Assembly: GCA_944325255.1 (NCBI GenBank)
Contig: CALUZH010000030.1
Coordinates: forward strand, 1 to 54,683
DNA length: 54,683 nt
Direction: 5' to 3'
Source of the DNA: an uncultured Erysipelotrichaceae bacterium
Lineage (GTDB): Bacteria > Bacillota_I > Bacilli_A > Erysipelotrichales > Erysipelotrichaceae
Part shown: positions 263 through 40,782 of the stretch, in pieces
Layout: the number at the start of each line of letters is the position of its first letter
Numbering within the stretch: position 1 is the stretch's first letter
Notes under the pieces: model-generated
Databases searched by the model: none
Told to the model about the DNA's origin: nothing
What the model saw: the letters and a program-made list of their open reading frames with translations, nothing else
Made by a program: the position numbers and the translations under genes

Positions 263-1567
263 CTATTCTCCTTTGACCCTTGACATCAATACTACCGTCT
301 CCACATGTTGAGTATTAGGGAAAAAATCAAAGGCTTTAATCGTTTCGATTTTATAGCGTTTCAATAAGATATTTAAATTTTTAGCCAATGTTGCACTGTT
401 ACAAGATATATAAATAATATTATTGATTTTAGCTTTTAACATATTCTCAAGCATATTGGCATCAAGGCCACTGCGTGGCGGATCGACAATCAAAGTATCA
501 ATATGACGGTTTTTAAAATGTAGTTTCAGCATCTCAGCCGCATCGCCATAGACAAAACGCAAATTATCAAGATGATTATTACGGGCATTGGCGTTGGCAT
601 TTTTAACAGCTGAAGCATCTAACTCAATACCGACCACTTCTTTAAATTTATTATGGGCTAAAAAAGACATAAGGCCGATACCGGCATATGCTTCCACTAA
701 AAGTTCTCCTTCTTCCAATAAATAATATACATATTCATACATCTTTTCGGCTGCTGAGGTATTAAGCTGCAAAAAGGCTTTGGGCGAAATATTTAAAGCG
801 AAATCGGCATAATGAAAATGCAAATCTTTTTTGCCACTTAAGTATTTAATATCAGAACCAAACAATTCCTTACTATTTTTGGCTATATTGGTCGATTGGC
901 TGATACTTTGAAAATGCTTGACTAATTCATCAATCATTTCCTTTTTATATTCATCATGCCCGCCAATTAAAGATAAAGAACTCATGTTTCCTAAAACTCT
1001 TATGACTATGTACCTTAAGCCTTTTTTGAGATGATGATCAAAATCTTTGATGCCATATTTATTCAAAATTAAAAGAGCTTCCTTAAGCTTAAGATTTAAT
1101 TCTTCATCATGATTTAAACAATCCTCAATGGAAATAAAACGATTAGAGTTTTGGGCGTAAAAACCGACGGTCAACTTATTGGTGCATCTTTTGACCGGCA
1201 ACTTTAAGGCATTACGATAATGTCGCTTTTTTGGACTTGGGGTAATATCGACATCGGCATAGATATCGGCATATTTGGCTAAAGATTCTTCCAGTATCGC
1301 TTTTTTGATGCGCAATTGTTCATCATAATCGGCATGTAAGAGTGTACAGGCCCCGCACTGTTGATAAAAAGGACAGGTGATTTTAATTCTGGACGGGGAA
1401 GCTTTGACGATTTCTTTAAGTTCGGCCGTTTTATAATTCTTATAAGAAGCATCAATTCTAACATCCGCTATTTCTTCAACTAAAACTCCCGGTATAAATA
1501 CCGGCTTTTTTTCGATATAGGCAATGCCTTCACCATTAATGCCATATTTTTTAATCTTTACTTTCAT
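263..1567 (-). CDS. rlmCD: 23S rRNA (uracil-C5)-methyltransferase, RlmCD/RumA family
   Basis: SAM-dependent enzyme that makes 5-methyluridine in 23S rRNA. Starting from ATG at 1567 the protein is 434 aa. Residues 1-55 form a TRAM domain. Cys65, Cys71 and Cys74 plus a later Cys (in IEDCLNH) are the [4Fe-4S] ligands. The SAM site is VEAYAGIG, followed by VDPPRSGLD and the catalytic-Cys motif YISCNSATL, and the end has the typical HVETVVLMSR. An in-frame TTG six nt upstream is possible but unlikely. A TATAAT box lies only 8 nt before the ATG and there is no Shine-Dalgarno sequence, so the mRNA may be leaderless. The 3' end abuts foreign-looking DNA. A second, TRAM-less paralogue lies at 36594-37700. 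Confidence 0.93.
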   Translation of the reverse strand: MKVKIKKYGINGEGIAYIEKKPVFIPGVLVEEIADVRIDASYKNYKTAELKEIVKASPSRIKITCPFYQQCGACTLLHADYDEQLRIKKAILEESLAKYADIYADVDITPSPKKRHYRNALKLPVKRCTNKLTVGFYAQNSNRFISIEDCLNHDEELNLKLKEALLILNKYGIKDFDHHLKKGLRYIVIRVLGNMSSLSLIGGHDEYKKEMIDELVKHFQSISQSTNIAKNSKELFGSDIKYLSGKKDLHFHYADFALNISPKAFLQLNTSAAEKMYEYVYYLLEEGELLVEAYAGIGLMSFLAHNKFKEVVGIELDASAVKNANANARNNHLDNLRFVYGDAAEMLKLHFKNRHIDTLIVDPPRSGLDANMLENMLKAKINNIIYISCNSATLAKNLNILLKRYKIETIKAFDFFPNTQHVETVVLMSRVKGE

Positions 1568-1575
1568 ACCCAATA

Positions 1576-1581
1576 ATTATA
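1576..1581 (-). promoter_or_regulatory. -10 box of rlmCD, positioned for a leaderless transcript
   Basis: TATAAT on the minus strand with 8 nt between it and the ATG at 1567. Transcription normally starts about 7 nt after the -10 box, which would place the first base at or beside the start codon. No convincing -35 hexamer is visible at 17 nt. Confidence 0.5.
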
Positions 1582-1625
1582 ATGCATATCTCTTGTCTCT
1601 TCATTATATTTATGTTATTTTAATA

Positions 1626-1642
1626 ATACCCATAGGGGGTAT
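1626..1642 (+). promoter_or_regulatory. CsoR-type copper operator
   Basis: The pseudo-palindrome ATACCC-ATA-GGGGGTAT lies just before the copA ribosome binding site (AGAGGT at 1645-1650). G/C-tract inverted repeats of this kind are the known targets of CsoR repressors, and a csoR gene with an intact Cu(I) triad ends this same operon. Copper would release CsoR and induce copA-csoR. Confidence 0.75.
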
Positions 1643-1656
1643 ATAGAGGTATTCAT

Positions 1657-4023
1657 ATGAAGAAAAATTATACAGTTAAGGGTATGTCTTGTGCCATATG
1701 CAAGAATACGATTGAGAAAAACCTTTCTAAGCTCGATGCTGTTAAAAGCTGCAGTGTTAACTTATTAGAGAATGAGATGGCTATCGAATATGATGAAAAC
1801 AAACTTTCGGAAAACGAACTGGCCAAAGATGTCAAAGATTTAGGCTATGAACTTTTGCTTAAAGATACTGGCAAGAAAGTTGATTCCACCCGTATCCGTT
1901 TTATTGCCAGTATCATCTTAATGGTGATATTAATGTATTTTTCTATGGGCCATATGCTTCATTTGCCATATCCTTCCCTTGATCAGTTTAATATTGCCCT
2001 CATTGAAATGGCCTTGGCCATCATTATCTATATCTTAAACTTTCATTATTTTAAAAGCGGCTGGCTGTCCTTATTGCATCTTAATCCCAATATGGATGCC
2101 CTAGTAGCCTTATCTACTTCCGTATCCTTCCTTTATTCGCTTTGGGCAACTTATAAAATAAGTATCGGTGATACCTCCTTCCATTTATATTATGAAACCG
2201 GGGCCATGATTTTGGTGATTGTTTCGATTGGCAAGTTTATTGAAGGCGAAAATAAAAAGAAAACAACCGATACCATCAGAGCCTTAGCTACCTTAAGGCC
2301 GATGAATGCCCGGCTCTTAAAGAATGGGGAAACAATCACTGTTCCGATTGACGAAGTTGAGGTTGGCGATATCTTGGTCGTTAAAGCCGGGGAAAATATT
2401 CCGCAAGACGGCATCGTTAAAAACGGTCATTGTCTGGTTGATGAATCGATGTTGACGGGTGAATCTTTACCGATTGAAAAAGCTCCCGGCCATAAGGTAA
2501 TTGGCGGTACCATCAATTTAAACGGCAATATTGAAATAGAAGTCAGTGTTGCTGATAAGGATTCCGTTTTAAACAGTATTATTGAATTAACCAAAGAAGC
2601 CACTCAAAAAAAGATTCCGATTGAACGCTTTGCCGATCGGGTATCGGCCTTCTTTGTGCCGGGCGTCCTCATAATTTCCTTAATTACCTTCCTTATTTGG
2701 TATTTAAGCAGCGGTCATCTTGAAAACAGTTTGAACTTCGCTCTTTCGGTACTGGTCATCTCTTGTCCTTGTGCCTTAGGTTTGGCTACGCCAAGTGCCA
2801 TAATGGTGGCAACCGGACTCAGTGCCAAAAACGGTATTCTCATTAAAAATCCGGCGATTTTGGAAATTGCCGGCAAAATTAAAAATATTGTCTTGGATAA
2901 GACCGGTACCATTACCGAAAATCGGGTAAGCATCGTCGAAGAAAAAATCTATGATGAGCAAATGAAAGAAGTTGTTTCCTCTTTGGAAGCCAATTCCAAT
3001 CATCCGATTGCCCAAGCCATCATCGCTAAGTATCCTGAACATCATTTGCATTTTAGTAGTTTCAATGAGGTCAGCGGTCGGGGCATCATTGCCAAGGATG
3101 ATGAACATCAATATCTGGCCGGCAATGTTGCCTGGCTTAAAGAAAATGGGGTAAATGTTGGTGCCGAGGATATCAGGAAAGCACAGGAAAACAGCTGGTC
3201 CATGATTGCCGTTGCCCTTGATGATAAACTTTTAGGCATCATCTATTTGGCCGATGTCATCAAACCGACTTCCGTTTTCGCCATTAAAGAGCTTCAAGAT
3301 ATGGGCATCAATGTAACGATGTGCACCGGGGATAATCCGATTACCGCTGCCAAAATCGCTAAGGAAGCCGGCATTGGAAACTATATTGCCGAAGTCAAAC
3401 CGGAAAATAAATATGCTATTATAGAAGAGAAGAAAAAAAGCGGCATCACGGCCATGGTCGGCGACGGTATTAATGACGCTATTGCCCTAAGCAGTGCCGA
3501 TGTATCCTTCGGTATTGCTGCCGGCAGTGACATCGCCTATGCTTCCAGTGATGTCATTCTCATTAAAAATGACTTGACGGATATCGCTTATTTGATTGCC
3601 ATCGCCCAAAAAACGATGCGCACGATTAAGCAAAATCTCTTCTGGGCCTTGTTTTATAACGCTATCTTTATCCCGTTAGCTGCCGGTGCCCTATATCCGG
3701 GCTTTGGCATTGCCCTAAATCCGATGATCGGGGCCTTTACGATGTCCATCTCTTCAATCTTCGTCTTAAGCAATGCTTTAAGAATTCGTAATATTAAAAA
3801 GAAAGGAATAAGCTATATGAACAAAGTTGTCAAAATCGAAGGCATGATGTGCCAACACTGCCAAAAACGCGTTGAGGATGCTTTAAAGAAGCTCCATCTT
3901 GATGTCCGCGTATCCTTGGAAGACAAGGCGGCCTACATCAATAATTGTCAAGTTGATGATGCTTTGATTAAACAAAGTATCGAAGATGCCGGCTACGAAG
4001 TCAAAGAGATTACCAATGCCTAA
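1657..4023 (+). CDS. copA: Cu(I)-exporting P1B-type ATPase with C-terminal CopZ-like domain
   Basis: Copper-efflux pump, 788 aa, inner membrane. Residues 1-66 are a heavy-metal-associated (HMA) domain with Cys12 and Cys15 in GMSCAIC. The pump core follows: the TGE actuator motif (MLTGESLP), the CPC metal site (SCPCALGLATPS), the phosphorylated Asp in DKTGTIT, the P1B HP motif (SNHPIAQ) and the GDGINDA hinge. After the last membrane helices a linker (RIRNIKKKG) leads to a second HMA domain at the C-terminus with Cys732 and Cys735 (GMMCQHC). That placement is unusual, because CopA HMA domains are normally N-terminal and CopZ a separate protein. An internal ribosome site and ATG at 3817 could also yield this domain alone. 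It is preceded by a CsoR operator and overlaps csoR by 8 nt. Confidence 0.95.
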   Translation: MKKNYTVKGMSCAICKNTIEKNLSKLDAVKSCSVNLLENEMAIEYDENKLSENELAKDVKDLGYELLLKDTGKKVDSTRIRFIASIILMVILMYFSMGHMLHLPYPSLDQFNIALIEMALAIIIYILNFHYFKSGWLSLLHLNPNMDALVALSTSVSFLYSLWATYKISIGDTSFHLYYETGAMILVIVSIGKFIEGENKKKTTDTIRALATLRPMNARLLKNGETITVPIDEVEVGDILVVKAGENIPQDGIVKNGHCLVDESMLTGESLPIEKAPGHKVIGGTINLNGNIEIEVSVADKDSVLNSIIELTKEATQKKIPIERFADRVSAFFVPGVLIISLITFLIWYLSSGHLENSLNFALSVLVISCPCALGLATPSAIMVATGLSAKNGILIKNPAILEIAGKIKNIVLDKTGTITENRVSIVEEKIYDEQMKEVVSSLEANSNHPIAQAIIAKYPEHHLHFSSFNEVSGRGIIAKDDEHQYLAGNVAWLKENGVNVGAEDIRKAQENSWSMIAVALDDKLLGIIYLADVIKPTSVFAIKELQDMGINVTMCTGDNPITAAKIAKEAGIGNYIAEVKPENKYAIIEEKKKSGITAMVGDGINDAIALSSADVSFGIAAGSDIAYASSDVILIKNDLTDIAYLIAIAQKTMRTIKQNLFWALFYNAIFIPLAAGALYPGFGIALNPMIGAFTMSISSIFVLSNALRIRNIKKKGISYMNKVVKIEGMMCQHCQKRVEDALKKLHLDVRVSLEDKAAYINNCQVDDALIKQSIEDAGYEVKEITNA
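3817..4023 (+). CDS. copZ: Possible internally initiated CopZ-like copper chaperone (68 aa)
   Basis: Within copA, in the same frame, an ATG at 3817 is preceded by AAAGGAA at a spacing of about 9 nt, which is a usable Shine-Dalgarno sequence. The product would be a complete 68-aa HMA domain (MNKVVKIEGMMCQHCQKR onwards) with the CxxC Cu(I) site, the size of CopZ chaperones. This may be a former separate copZ gene joined to copA by loss of a stop codon, or a gene still expressed in two forms. No other copZ is seen in the window. The internal start is inference; the fused reading frame is seen directly. Confidence 0.5.
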   Translation: MNKVVKIEGMMCQHCQKRVEDALKKLHLDVRVSLEDKAAYINNCQVDDALIKQSIEDAGYEVKEITNA

Positions 4024-4273
4024 AGATCGCAAGAAAGTCAAAAAATTTCTGAATATTGCCCTTGGTCAATTAGAAGGTATCCTAAAAATGATTGACGAAG
4101 ACCGTTATTGTTTAGAAATATCCGATCAACTTATGGCTACCAGAGCACTTTTAAAAAAAGCCAACAATATCATTCTCAAGGATCATATCGATGATTGCGT
4201 CAGACAAGCCATCATTGACGGCGATGATGAAAAGATTGATGAAGTTATCAAAGCTTTGGAAAAACAAATTTAA
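4016..4273 (+). CDS. csoR: CsoR-family copper-sensing repressor
   Basis: All-helical DUF156/CsoR repressor, 85 aa. I use the ATG at 4016, which gives the family's normal N-terminus (MPKDRKKVKKFLN) and an 8-nt overlap with copA; an upstream in-frame start at 3986 would add 10 residues and is less likely. Cys32, His57 and Cys61 form the full Cu(I)-binding triad, which separates CsoR from RcnR and FrmR types. It probably represses the copA-csoR operon through the operator at 1626-1642. Confidence 0.9.
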   Translation: MPKDRKKVKKFLNIALGQLEGILKMIDEDRYCLEISDQLMATRALLKKANNIILKDHIDDCVRQAIIDGDDEKIDEVIKALEKQI

Positions 4274-4296
4274 AAAGCGGTTCATTCCGCTTTTTT
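4272..4296. terminator. Bidirectional terminator between csoR and the chorismate mutase gene
   Basis: Stem AAAAAGCGG / CCGCTTTTT with a TTCATT loop. Both flanks supply a U-run, so it can end transcripts from either side. It overlaps the last codons of the minus-strand gene. Confidence 0.85.
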
Positions 4297-4563
4297 CAAT
4301 TCTTCGATATGCCGTGCCTGATAAGCTTTGGAAAGGCTAATAACTTCTTTTAAAAAAAGGATATAGGCCTTACAAAGTTCTTCATCTTTTATATCGGCAC
4401 TCAACCTTTTAAGCATTTCTTCTTCTCTTTTACGATCTTCAATATTTAAGCCCTCGGCAAACTTTTTTTCAGCAATCTTTAAAACGACCTTTTGGCGTTT
4501 TATAAAAAGCTTTTTCATTTCATCATCAATTTCATTAAGTAAGTTTCTTTCTTCTTCAAACAT
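4282..4563 (-). CDS. Chorismate mutase type II (AroQ-like) domain protein
   Basis: Single-domain, 93 aa, all-helical. The pattern LLNEIDDEMKKLFIKRQKVV, then AEKKFAEGLNI and DRKREEEML, matches the AroQ fold with the substrate-binding Arg/Lys and Glu positions. AroQ enzymes convert chorismate to prephenate in Phe/Tyr synthesis. No other aromatic-pathway gene is nearby; it overlaps the 3' end of a DMT transporter gene by 8 nt and is probably co-transcribed with it. A role in transport of an aromatic compound is possible but only inferred. Confidence 0.75.
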   Translation of the reverse strand: MFEEERNLLNEIDDEMKKLFIKRQKVVLKIAEKKFAEGLNIEDRKREEEMLKRLSADIKDEELCKAYILFLKEVISLSKAYQARHIEELKKAE

Positions 4564-16711: not shown

Positions 16712-18984
16712 TAAAGGGCTTAAATCCCGAAGAACTAAAACAGCGCATCCAAAACGGCCAAATAAACAAAAGTAATATCAAAACCGAAAAAAGTATTAAA
16801 GATATTATTTTCAGCAATATCTTTACTTTCTTTAACGGCATCAATCTTATTTTGGTCCTTTTGGTCTTTATGACCGGGCATTTTCGCAATGCCCTTTTTA
16901 TGTTGGTGGTCATAATCAATACCGCCATCGGAATTTTCCAGGAAATTAAGGCCAAAAAGACCTTGGATAAGTTGCGTTTTTTATCTAAGCCTCAGGCAAC
17001 GGTAATACGTAATAAACAAGAATTGAAAATCAGTGCCGAAGAATTGGTCTTGAATGATATTGTCAAATTAAAGCTGGGTGATGAGATCTTAAGCGATGGT
17101 GAAGTAATTGAAGGCCAAGTTTTAGTCAACGAAGCCCTTTTGACCGGTGAAAGTGAAAACATTCTCAAGTCTCATGGCGACAAGCTCTATGCCGGCAGTT
17201 TTATTACCGGCGGTATGGCCTATATGGAAATTAAAGCTGTAGGCGACCAAAATTATATAAATCATATTCTTAAAACAGTCCGCAAAAATAAAAAACAGCC
17301 TTCCCGGCTCCGCGATGCCATGGATTTCATTATCAAATCCATATCTTTGATTATTTTCCCCTTGGGTATTATCCTTTTTGCCAAGCAATTCTTTCTCAGT
17401 CAAAATAATTTAAATGAAGCCTTACTTGGCACGGTAGCTTCCTTAGTCGGCATGATTCCCGAAGGGCTTATCCTTTTGACTTCAGTCGCCTTAAGTGTCG
17501 GAGCGGTCAAACTGTCTTGGGAAAAGACGGTCGTCAATGAACTTTATTCCCTTGAAACTTTGGCCCGTTGCAACGTCTTATGTTTTGATAAGACCGGAAC
17601 TGTCACTACCGGCAAATTAAAAGTTATTAAAGATATCCGCTTTTGTGATGCCCAAGTTGATGATATCATTGCCAATATCATCAACTTATCAGGTGATGAA
17701 AATCCTACTTCTTCAGCCTTAAAAGACTACTATCATAGCCAAAATCAATATGTGCCCTTAAAGATCATACCCTTTTCTTCAAATACTAAGAAGACGGTTA
17801 TGGAAGTCCTTGGCCATACTTATGAATTGGGAGCCTTTGACTATCTTAATGTTGCATATAATCGCGAACAAAATGACCTTTTAGATAAATATCTTAATGA
17901 CGGTTACCGCCTTTTGGCCTTAAGTGACAAGGGCAAGCTTTTAGCTATTATCATCATGCAGGATGAAATACGTATAAATGCTGCACAAATCTTAGATTAT
18001 TTCAAGAAACAGGATGTGGAAATCAAAATAATTTCGGGAGATAATCCCCAAACCGTTAAAAATATCCTATCCCAAATCGGTTTAAAAGAAATATCTTGTA
18101 TGGATTGTCATAATATCGATAATACCAAGCTCCTTGAAGCCATAAATAGTTCTAATATCTTCGGGCGGGTAAGTCCCGATCAAAAAAGCTTCATAATCGA
18201 AGCCTTAAAAGCCCAGGGCAAGGTAGTCGGAATGGTGGGCGATGGAGCCAATGATGTATTGGCCCTAAAAAGTGCCGACTTTTCCATTGCCATGTTTAAT
18301 GGTGCCAAAAGTGCCAAAAATGTGGCCAATGTCGTCCTTTTGGATAATGACTTTTCCCATATGCCGTCAATTGTCAATGAAGGCCGAAGAGTTATCAATA
18401 ACATTCAAAAATCGGCAACTCTTTTTCTTTCCAAAACCGTTTTATCAATCAGCTTAAGCCTTTTAACCGTCTTAGCCTTTGCTTCATATCCTTTTGATCC
18501 CATCCAGTTAACCCTCATATCGTCCTTTTGTATCGGCTTTCCGGCCTTTTGTCTTTCTTTTGAGCCGAATTATAGTATCATCAAAGGCAATTTCCTGGCC
18601 AACGTTTTGGCCAAGGCCTTGCCTATAGCTATAGCCGTAACGATATCAGTTATCATTGTTGAAATATTAAAACTTCTCTCTTTGATCGATGAAAGCCATT
18701 TGCAAACTATCGTCGTCATCATCACTTATCTTTCCTTGCTTTATGTTCTTTATGACATATGCAAACCTTTTAACCCTTGGCGCATCGCCATATTGATTAT
18801 TGCCGCTTCCGGTATCATATTAGCCTTTTTATGGGCAAATAATTTTTTCTACTTAAGTTTTTTGCCGCTGCATGAACTTATATTAAGCTTGGCTCTTAGC
18901 CTTTTGACCATTATCCTTTTCCGTTTCTTACAAAAAAAGTCTCTGGCAAGTAAATTAGCCCAAAAACTTGATGATCAATATTAA
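16708..18984 (+). CDS. Cation-translocating P-type ATPase, CtpE-like
   Basis: 758 aa membrane pump. It begins with GTG in a 4-nt overlap with the GNAT gene. Seen: actuator LLTGESEN, the M4 ion-site motif GMIPEGLILLTSVALSVG, phosphorylation motif CFDKTGTVTTGK, and GDGANDVLALKSAD. The PEGL helix and short, simple termini match the CtpE group, whose mycobacterial member transports Ca2+. The true ion is not evident. At least six further helices follow the hinge. A terminator lies at its stop codon. Confidence 0.88.
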   Translation: MIKGLNPEELKQRIQNGQINKSNIKTEKSIKDIIFSNIFTFFNGINLILVLLVFMTGHFRNALFMLVVIINTAIGIFQEIKAKKTLDKLRFLSKPQATVIRNKQELKISAEELVLNDIVKLKLGDEILSDGEVIEGQVLVNEALLTGESENILKSHGDKLYAGSFITGGMAYMEIKAVGDQNYINHILKTVRKNKKQPSRLRDAMDFIIKSISLIIFPLGIILFAKQFFLSQNNLNEALLGTVASLVGMIPEGLILLTSVALSVGAVKLSWEKTVVNELYSLETLARCNVLCFDKTGTVTTGKLKVIKDIRFCDAQVDDIIANIINLSGDENPTSSALKDYYHSQNQYVPLKIIPFSSNTKKTVMEVLGHTYELGAFDYLNVAYNREQNDLLDKYLNDGYRLLALSDKGKLLAIIIMQDEIRINAAQILDYFKKQDVEIKIISGDNPQTVKNILSQIGLKEISCMDCHNIDNTKLLEAINSSNIFGRVSPDQKSFIIEALKAQGKVVGMVGDGANDVLALKSADFSIAMFNGAKSAKNVANVVLLDNDFSHMPSIVNEGRRVINNIQKSATLFLSKTVLSISLSLLTVLAFASYPFDPIQLTLISSFCIGFPAFCLSFEPNYSIIKGNFLANVLAKALPIAIAVTISVIIVEILKLLSLIDESHLQTIVVIITYLSLLYVLYDICKPFNPWRIAILIIAASGIILAFLWANNFFYLSFLPLHELILSLALSLLTIILFRFLQKKSLASKLAQKLDDQY

Positions 18985-38169: not shown

Positions 38170-40782
38170 TTAATTATCCTTATTAATTTTAGATAATAAG
38201 CTTTTGCCGCTTTGTACTGTTAAAAAAGAAGCGAAAGCTAAAACTACAACCATGCAGTAGCTGCTTAAATCCAGAGTTTTAACGGCAAATATCGTTGCCA
38301 AGCCCGGGAATAAAATAACCAAACTCAATAAGGAGAAACCGATGAAGAAAGCGCCAATTAACCAAGAATTGTTAAACAAACATTTATTAAAAATAAGAGG
38401 TCGATAACTTTTAGAACTGAAGCCATGAAATAGACGACTCAAACACAAAACAGCAAAAGCCATGGTCATCGCAGAGGCAGTATCGTCTTGATAGCCGATG
38501 AAGTAAGCTATCATCGTAAAAATGGCGATAGCCAAACCATCAAGGCCAATGCGAAGTAAAAAAGAACGGGTTAGTATTGACTCATTCTGTGGCCGTGGTT
38601 TTTCTTTCATCACTTCATCTGATCCCGGTTCCAGTCCCAATGCGATAGCCGGCAAAGAATCGGTCAAAAGATTGATAAACAGTAAATGAACCGGAGCAAA
38701 CGGCAGCGGCAGCAACATTACCGATGCAAAAAGAACCGCTAAAATAGCTGCAAAATTACCGGACAAAAGGAATTGAATGGCGTTTTTAATATTTCGATAA
38801 ATATTGCGGCCATTTTCAATAGCTTTGACAATCGTTGCAAAATTATCATCAGCCAAAATCATTGCCGATGCATCTTTAGCCACTTCCGAACCGGTAATAC
38901 CCATAGCTACACCGATATCGGCCTGTTTTAAAGCCGGAGCATCATTGACTCCATCGCCGGTCATAGCCACAATGGCACCGTTGGCTTGCCAGGCCTTGAC
39001 AATACGAATCTTATGTTCCGGTGTAACCCGTGCATAAACCGCAACATCCTTAACAAAATCAGCTAATTCTTCATCGCTTATATGGTCAATCTCCGCTCCC
39101 TCTACCGCTTTTTTATCCGGCGTTAAAATGCCTATTTTATCAGCTATAGCTTTAGCGGTAAGCAAATGGTCACCGGTAATCATCACGGCATTGATATGAG
39201 CTTCTTTGCACGCTTGTACCGCTGCTTTCGATTCGGTGCGCGGCGGATCCATCATCGCGATAAGACCTAGAAAAATTAAATCTTTTTCATCCTCATAATC
39301 CAATTTAAGGCCTTTAAAGGGCTTATAAGCCAAAGCCAAAACTCTAAGACCGGAAGCGGAAAAAACAGCGGATTGCCGGGAAATGCGACTGATGTCTTCA
39401 TCATCTATCAATCTGATTCCTGATGATTCGGCGATTTTTGTTACCTTTTTAAGCAAGACATCACATGCCCCTTTAACGATTAAAATCTTTTCACTATCAA
39501 ATTCATTCAGAGTAGTCATCATTTTGCGGCCGCTATCAAAAGGTATCTCCGCTATACGCGGATATTGTTTATTGGCCGAATCGGTATCAATCCCTTTTGC
39601 TTTTGCCATTTCCAGCATGGCAATTTCCGTCGGATCACCGATTTTTTCTTCATCATTCACTTTAGCGTCATTACATAAAATACTATAAGTTATAAGTTTT
39701 TTAAGCAGGGCGTCACTTTGATCAAAAGTTGAACAGCATATCTTTTTATGATCAACATAATATGCTTCAATTGTCATTTTATTTTGAGTGAGCGTTCCTG
39801 TTTTATCTGAACAGATGACCGAAACGCTGCCCAGTCCTTCAACCGCCTGCAGTTTCCTAACAATCGCTTTTTCTTTGGCCATTTTTTGCGTGCCAATCGA
39901 CAATACGATAGTCACAATAGAACTTAATGCTTCCGGTATCGCCGCTACTGCCAAAGCAATCGCAAACAGGAAGGCATCGACAATATTATCTCCCTTTAAG
40001 ACACTCAACAGAAGTAATATACCGCACAAGGCAATAACTATGAGTGACAATTTTTTACCGAAAATATCAAGATTTACTTGTAACGGTGTCTTTTTTTCTT
40101 CGGCATTTTTTATTAAGCCAGCTATTTTCCCAACTTCGGTATTCATGCCGACTGTCGTAACTACATAACTGCCGCGACCATTAGTAACAAATGTTCCGGC
40201 ATAAACCATATTAAAACGTTCAGCTAAAGGAACATTATCTGCTTTGATAGCATTAAGTGCTTTATCAACGCCAATGCTTTCTCCCGTCAAGGCACTTTCA
40301 TCAACTTTCAATGAAGCCAAAGTCAAAAGACGGCCGTCGCTTGGAACATAGTCGCCGGCATCGAGGTAGACAATATCGCCAACTACAACTTCCCATGCAG
40401 GAAGCATAACTATTTCATTATTGCGTAATACCTTAGCCATAGGCGAAGCCATTTTTTTAAGACTGTTTAATGAAGCTTCGGCTTTAACGGTCTGCACTGT
40501 TCCTAAAATTGCATTTAGCAAGGTTACGGCAAAAATAACAAGAGCACTCTCTCCTTCGCCGATTAAAGCAGAGATACCTGCTGCCACCAACAAGATAATG
40601 ACCAAAAAATCTTTAAATTGACTGAAAAAAATATAGATAATACTTTTATTCTTGGTTTCTCCGAGCTCATTGCGGCCATATTTGGCCCGGCTGCGCGCAA
40701 CTTCTTCATCATTCAGCGGATTCAAAGAACCGTTAACAGCGATTAAAGTTGCTTTCTCATTCAATTGATAATATTCTTTCAT
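38170..40782 (-). CDS. P2-type Ca2+/Mn2+-transporting ATPase
   Basis: 870 aa with the cation-ATPase N-domain and C-terminal domain found in PMCA/SERCA-like pumps. Seen: SALTGESIGVDK, the M4 motif VAAIPEALSSIVTIVLSIG, phosphorylation motif CSDKTGTLTQNKMT, the MITGDHLLTAKAIA loop, TGDGVNDAPALKQADIG, and NLLTDSLPAIALGLEP in M6. A yybP-ykoY (Mn2+-sensing) riboswitch precedes it, which points to manganese export as in other Bacillota, though Ca2+ is also possible. Confidence 0.93.
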   Translation of the reverse strand: MKEYYQLNEKATLIAVNGSLNPLNDEEVARSRAKYGRNELGETKNKSIIYIFFSQFKDFLVIILLVAAGISALIGEGESALVIFAVTLLNAILGTVQTVKAEASLNSLKKMASPMAKVLRNNEIVMLPAWEVVVGDIVYLDAGDYVPSDGRLLTLASLKVDESALTGESIGVDKALNAIKADNVPLAERFNMVYAGTFVTNGRGSYVVTTVGMNTEVGKIAGLIKNAEEKKTPLQVNLDIFGKKLSLIVIALCGILLLLSVLKGDNIVDAFLFAIALAVAAIPEALSSIVTIVLSIGTQKMAKEKAIVRKLQAVEGLGSVSVICSDKTGTLTQNKMTIEAYYVDHKKICCSTFDQSDALLKKLITYSILCNDAKVNDEEKIGDPTEIAMLEMAKAKGIDTDSANKQYPRIAEIPFDSGRKMMTTLNEFDSEKILIVKGACDVLLKKVTKIAESSGIRLIDDEDISRISRQSAVFSASGLRVLALAYKPFKGLKLDYEDEKDLIFLGLIAMMDPPRTESKAAVQACKEAHINAVMITGDHLLTAKAIADKIGILTPDKKAVEGAEIDHISDEELADFVKDVAVYARVTPEHKIRIVKAWQANGAIVAMTGDGVNDAPALKQADIGVAMGITGSEVAKDASAMILADDNFATIVKAIENGRNIYRNIKNAIQFLLSGNFAAILAVLFASVMLLPLPFAPVHLLFINLLTDSLPAIALGLEPGSDEVMKEKPRPQNESILTRSFLLRIGLDGLAIAIFTMIAYFIGYQDDTASAMTMAFAVLCLSRLFHGFSSKSYRPLIFNKCLFNNSWLIGAFFIGFSLLSLVILFPGLATIFAVKTLDLSSYCMVVVLAFASFLTVQSGKSLLSKINKDN

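Follow-up and report, generated by a model that had tools for sequence, protein, structure and literature searches.

Can a single gene for a copper pump also encode a separate copper chaperone within its own 3′ end? The copA gene of an uncultured Erysipelotrichaceae bacterium raises this question: the pump it encodes ends in a second HMA domain, and that domain begins with an in-frame methionine codon preceded by a potential ribosome-binding site. The gene lies in a stretch of 54,683 nucleotides (contig CALUZH010000030.1), referred to here as the window. An earlier note, made from these letters alone, had proposed that copA gives rise to two products, a pump that carries a tethered chaperone and, by internal initiation, a free CopZ. 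Nucleotide conservation and the distribution of separate copZ genes among relatives support this proposal, and translation from the internal start would be the step that follows from them. The 3′ end of copA is thus very probably a nested copZ, at which in-frame internal initiation would yield free CopZ besides the tethered pump.

The copA gene and its C-terminal domain

The features of the locus are as follows (positions in the window).

1626-1642, unstranded: putative CsoR-operator-like palindrome ATACCCATAGGGGGTAT / TACCCATAGGGGGTA, 5′ of copA, read in the sequence
1657-4023, forward: copA, Cu(+) P1B-type ATPase of 788 aa with an HMA domain at the N- and the C-terminus (ORF, Pfam, CPC motif, predicted fold)
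1669-1851, forward: N-terminal HMA domain of CopA (Pfam, E 6.2e-16)
3781-3816, forward: short linker from the last transmembrane helix to the C-terminal HMA domain, containing the candidate internal ribosome-binding site; coil at 713-720 in the predicted structure
3802-3808, forward: candidate internal Shine-Dalgarno (SD) sequence AAAGGAA, AAGGAGGA in most relatives (sequence and comparative conservation)
3817-4023, forward: proposed nested copZ, an in-frame ORF from ATG 3817, 68 aa, with GMMCQHC and a complete HMA/CopZ fold
4016-4273, forward: csoR-type copper-sensing repressor gene (PF02583), whose start codon (ATG, 4016) overlaps the copA stop
4272-4295, unstranded: terminator-like hairpin ending the copA-csoR operon (consensus match only)

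The window's CopA contains the HMA domain twice, together with the E1-E2 ATPase and hydrolase domains (Pfam). Specifically, it combines these two domains with the CPC, DKTGT and GDGIND motifs and an N-terminal HMA domain, which are the features that define the CopA class, and the csoR gene in the operon agrees with copper as the likely substrate. A motif of the TACCC-N5-GGGTA type is found 5′ of copA in 16 of 128 loci with a fused C-terminal HMA domain (expected: 0.006 per 290 nt of coding DNA). Two more P-type ATPase genes lie in the window (16903-18456, forward; 38752-40527, reverse), and their CopA matches are only 28-35% identical.

ATG 3817 is codon 721 of copA, in frame, at a spacing of 8 nt from AAAGGAA. 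Searched on its own, the 68-aa piece (3817-4020) matches the HMA family (Pfam, PF00403) with E 3.5e-8, above the cut-off, and by sequence it matches the solved CopZ structures 1k0v, 6ff2 and 2qif as well as copper-ATPase domains. In the structure predicted for CopA (overall pLDDT 77.5, from an alignment of 15 rows), a strand (721-728) is followed by a helix (733-744), two strands (749-753 and 758-764), a second helix (768-777) and a last strand (781-787). The internal methionine is residue 1 of this complete predicted HMA fold; given this order of elements, initiation at 3817 would yield exactly one complete CopZ fold. The complete C-terminal domain of 68 aa, the in-frame ATG and the AAAGGAA site described in the earlier note are therefore confirmed by the ORF, by Pfam and by the predicted fold.

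The SD energy at 3802-3808 is -5.9 kcal/mol. Starts presumed to be real have quartiles of -8.9, -7.4 and -5.1 kcal/mol; the site falls inside their range, near its weak end, and its SD is weaker than in most relatives. Since 9% of the other internal ATGs that are in frame in the window (26 of 283) equal or better this value, the single sequence argues only weakly for an internal start. RNA structure around the internal start does not rise above chance (z +1.06), and an Rfam search of 1500-4500 gave no match. An internal promoter for a short transcript was considered and rejected, the 9 promoter-like matches being no more than the 9.0 expected by chance. Neither an internal promoter nor an RNA structure is needed or seen for a nested copZ.

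The candidate internal start in related CopA loci

CopA-like matches are present in 193 of 196 genomes of the source bacterium's family, many of them with a C-terminal HMA domain and many extending to residue 781-787. For a wider survey, family relatives were combined with 80 named loci taken from a broad set of genomes and 80 further regions, and the loci were sorted by sequence motifs; the sample was picked by similarity to the query and is not an estimate of prevalence. Among the 181 CopA loci classified, 20 have an HMA frame no more than 900 nt past a stop (most of them directly adjacent), 29 have none, and 132 are fused; the earlier statement that a C-terminal HMA domain is rare is thus wrong for this CopA family, as judged from this similarity-chosen sample. 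There are tandem relatives in which the stop, the SD, the ATG and the separate copZ occur at the same place and in the same gene order. Fusion without any internal start occurs in a few lineages (genus g49, L070 and L082). The members of genus g49 (L042, L043 and L045) have a proline-containing linker before the fused domain, no SD or start and, instead, a free CopZ-like ORF that is no longer than 65 codons. Some CopAs end in two or three HMA domains (L133, L164, L177, L184, L193, L195, L203, L204, L063 and L188).

The survey of homologues for a C-terminal HMA domain and an internal ribosome site, which the earlier note had proposed as a check, came out in favour of the internal start. In 126 of 131 distinct fused genes (96%) a start codon, which is ATG in 122, precedes the last HMA motif by 4-13 codons, and in 97 of the 131 it lies exactly 8 codons before GMxCxxC, which is the usual start position of free CopZ. 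An SD of -8 kcal/mol or stronger is present at the site in 106 of the 131 genes (81%), whereas 2.7% of the 3,596 remaining in-frame ATGs inside these genes have one. The comparison has a small bias in the site's favour, as the best candidate start was taken at each site. The ribosome site, whose absence from close relatives had been named beforehand as counting against internal initiation, is kept throughout the family and well beyond it, in Lachnospiraceae, Oscillospiraceae, Christensenellaceae, Coriobacteriia, one Treponema and one member of the Elusimicrobiales.

More specifically, the linker before the site varies in length between about 18 and 78 residues and cannot be aligned, and the distance from SD to ATG is nearly fixed. 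The frame in which the SD is read differs among genes, as does the peptide encoded there (KEE, KGG, QGG, QEV, LEV; 120 distinct heptapeptides), so that it is the nucleotides that are conserved and not the amino acids. When the genes are aligned on the ATG, the information content is highest from -14 to -9 and falls to near zero farther upstream, like that of an ordinary ribosome-binding site. Among the CopAs with several C-terminal HMA domains, seven of the eight in the counted set have SD and start only at the last one, and the two never occur together at any of the 12 earlier C-terminal HMA domains. The eighth CopA (L177) lacks the start; about 260 nt 3′ of its last HMA domain there is a separate copZ. 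A ninth case, Catenisphaera adipataccumulans (L063), has SD and ATG before the last HMA domain only. What is found, then, is the sequence signature of a gene within a gene, namely an in-frame internal SD and start conserved beyond coding constraint, and the comparison of relatives argues very strongly for an internal start.

Separate copZ genes and other explanations

Of the 38 genomes examined for HMA ORFs, 1 of 23 with the internal start has a separate soluble CopZ-type ORF, as do 8 of 9 with a fused domain and no start and 6 of 6 without a C-terminal HMA domain; the nominal p for this complementarity (2e-8) is only indicative, because the ORF classes were set after viewing, and the genomes are related. 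The exceptions are Paucilactobacillus vaccinostercus, with both the start and a CopZ-like ORF, and L082, with no start and no separate CopZ seen. One of the eight fused genomes with CopZ and no start (G100) is cut by a contig end. Small ORFs of the DCANCA type beside CadA-like ATPases, of the GMCE type and of the LxCPxC type, as well as membrane-anchored ORFs, were set aside as not being soluble CopZ. Start and SD are lost together, and a separate copZ is then usually present.

The earlier observation that no separate copZ is seen holds for the whole genome of the source bacterium (98.8% complete), in which an HMA search revealed no other copZ. The sole further HMA domain is a 73-aa DCANCA-type ORF (MKKTYKIDVDCANCANKM..., L002 1429-1650, contig C4), which adjoins an ArsR gene and a CadA/ZntA-like ATPase gene. 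Very similar sets of ArsR, CadA/ZntA-like ATPase and free HMA genes are seen in most relatives examined, as if the metal-binding domain of CadA were a separate gene.

The best-placed alternative, itself very unlikely, is that a separate copZ became fused to copA through loss of the copA stop and that the leftover ribosome site is inert and makes nothing. Adjacent copA-stop-SD-copZ arrangements do exist in relatives, and they make fusion through stop loss a likely origin of the gene. The SD bases, however, are kept where synonymous sites are near saturation: in one genus AAGGAGGA (AAG GAG GA) is unchanged in 12 of 13 species, with a median identity of 35% at 4-fold sites and a median CopA identity of 61%. 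Codon choice also speaks against an inert remnant, as Lys-Glu at the site is coded AAG-GAG in 45 of 51 cases, compared with 67 of the 578 Lys-Glu pairs in other parts of these genes (odds ratio 57, p 3e-31). This dipeptide codon test and the genus-level test replaced a weak per-gene test of synonymous recoding, in which p < 0.05 was reached in only 34 of 126 genes and most single genes were not significant, because KEE codons already resemble an SD. Nor would a remnant account for an SD that stays constant while the linker varies several-fold, or for the joint disappearance of start and SD where a separate copZ usually exists. A nested copZ has probably arisen from, or could revert to, a tandem copA-copZ pair, because relatives have the same order with an intervening stop codon.

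Next in order, and hardly probable, is the explanation that the C-terminal HMA domain serves solely as a second metal-binding domain tethered to the pump, as in CopA of Archaeoglobus fulgidus, for which such a C-terminal domain is known (as quoted in PMC7558416). The lineages that are fused without an internal start (g49, L070, L082) fit this explanation and suggest that the tethered domain may be useful in its own right. As the only role, it leaves unexplained the start and the strong SD that most fused genes possess, and also the near absence of separate copZ from genomes with the internal start. The tethered and free roles can coexist.

Still less probable is an elongation pause, in which the SD-like sequence would aid the folding of the last transmembrane helices and the methionine would be incidental. 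In the predicted structure the site does lie only a short way past the last membrane helix, but across relatives the distance from this helix to the SD differs several-fold at a nearly fixed spacing to the ATG, and in multi-HMA proteins the site precedes the last HMA domain, far from the membrane. Release of the chaperone from CopA by a protease would give the same free CopZ, and the linker is a predicted coil, but the linker peptides are not conserved and the SD nucleotides are, which leaves this route barely credible.

Relation to known systems

If copZ is indeed nested in copA, ribosomes starting at ATG 1657 would read through and produce CopA with its tethered C-terminal HMA domain, and other ribosomes would bind the SD at 3802-3808 and start at ATG 3817 to produce a free 68-aa CopZ. 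The free CopZ would pick up cytosolic Cu(I) and pass it to the pump, both products coming from one CsoR-controlled copA-csoR operon. Initiation at 3817, the amount of product, the chaperone function and the control by CsoR are proposed here from the sequence, and it is from the conserved internal start that we infer CopZ as a free soluble protein. It is also reasonably likely that this is a lineage-wide system of one gene and two proteins: initiation inside copA would be almost the sole source of free CopZ in several Bacillota classes and in some other phyla, pump and chaperone would stand at a fixed, ribosome-set ratio, and the arrangement would be kept by selection and have an origin separate from that of the E. 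coli frameshift.

In E. coli, a frameshift and an early stop release the N-terminal HMA domain. Programmed -1 ribosomal frameshifting on copA yields the pump and CopA(Z) (Meydan et al. 2017; Drees et al. 2017, as cited in PMC10187127 and PMC9548414). The parallel is one of function, since in both cases a single copA would yield a pump and a free HMA chaperone and there is no separate copZ, whereas the domain is N-terminal and released by frameshifting in E. coli and here would be C-terminal, in frame 0 and made by internal initiation. Genes within genes that use internal translation initiation are known from RpnL/RpnS (PMC10327210), and Cas11d within the large Cascade subunit is a further case (as cited in PMC10327210). 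There, too, a C-terminal domain is also made alone from an in-frame internal ribosome-binding site and start, but the protein families are different, and the free domain proposed here would be a metallochaperone, which is an independent gene in relatives. Haemophilus influenzae has separate copZ-copA genes (PMC10187127). The copA-copZ operons of the relatives L048, L064 and L143 share the gene order and the same SD and ATG before CopZ with the window, but in them a stop codon divides the two genes, whose frames are joined here. CopA of A. fulgidus is similar in that the pump carries an HMA domain at either end; in that organism CopZ is encoded by a gene of its own, and we know of no report of an internal start in its copA.

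No earlier report of internal initiation for copA/copZ was found in the open-access literature; internal initiation is known in other families, and its use for copA/copZ would be new. If the nested copZ is real, then (i) the annotation of many gut and anaerobic bacteria lacks a copper chaperone, since gene callers give the long copA only, (ii) there is a second, unrelated route to a pump and a chaperone from one gene, beside the E. coli frameshift, which points to selection for obtaining the two from a single message, (iii) this internal start ranks among the more deeply conserved in-frame ones and (iv) the locus is well suited to testing how one metal-binding domain divides its work between tethered and free copies.

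Two other kinds of small HMA protein were seen in the genomes compared. One is a second small HMA family with the pattern GM[MA]C.MCE.H.N..IRK and a C-terminal extension (L257, L260, L321, L319, L332, L333 and L368); it occurs once directly 3′ of copA (L082/L333). The other comprises apparently membrane-anchored proteins (L320, L363, L364 and L367), in which an N-terminal hydrophobic helix is followed by a cysteine pair of the GCCG or SCCGG type and then by the HMA domain.
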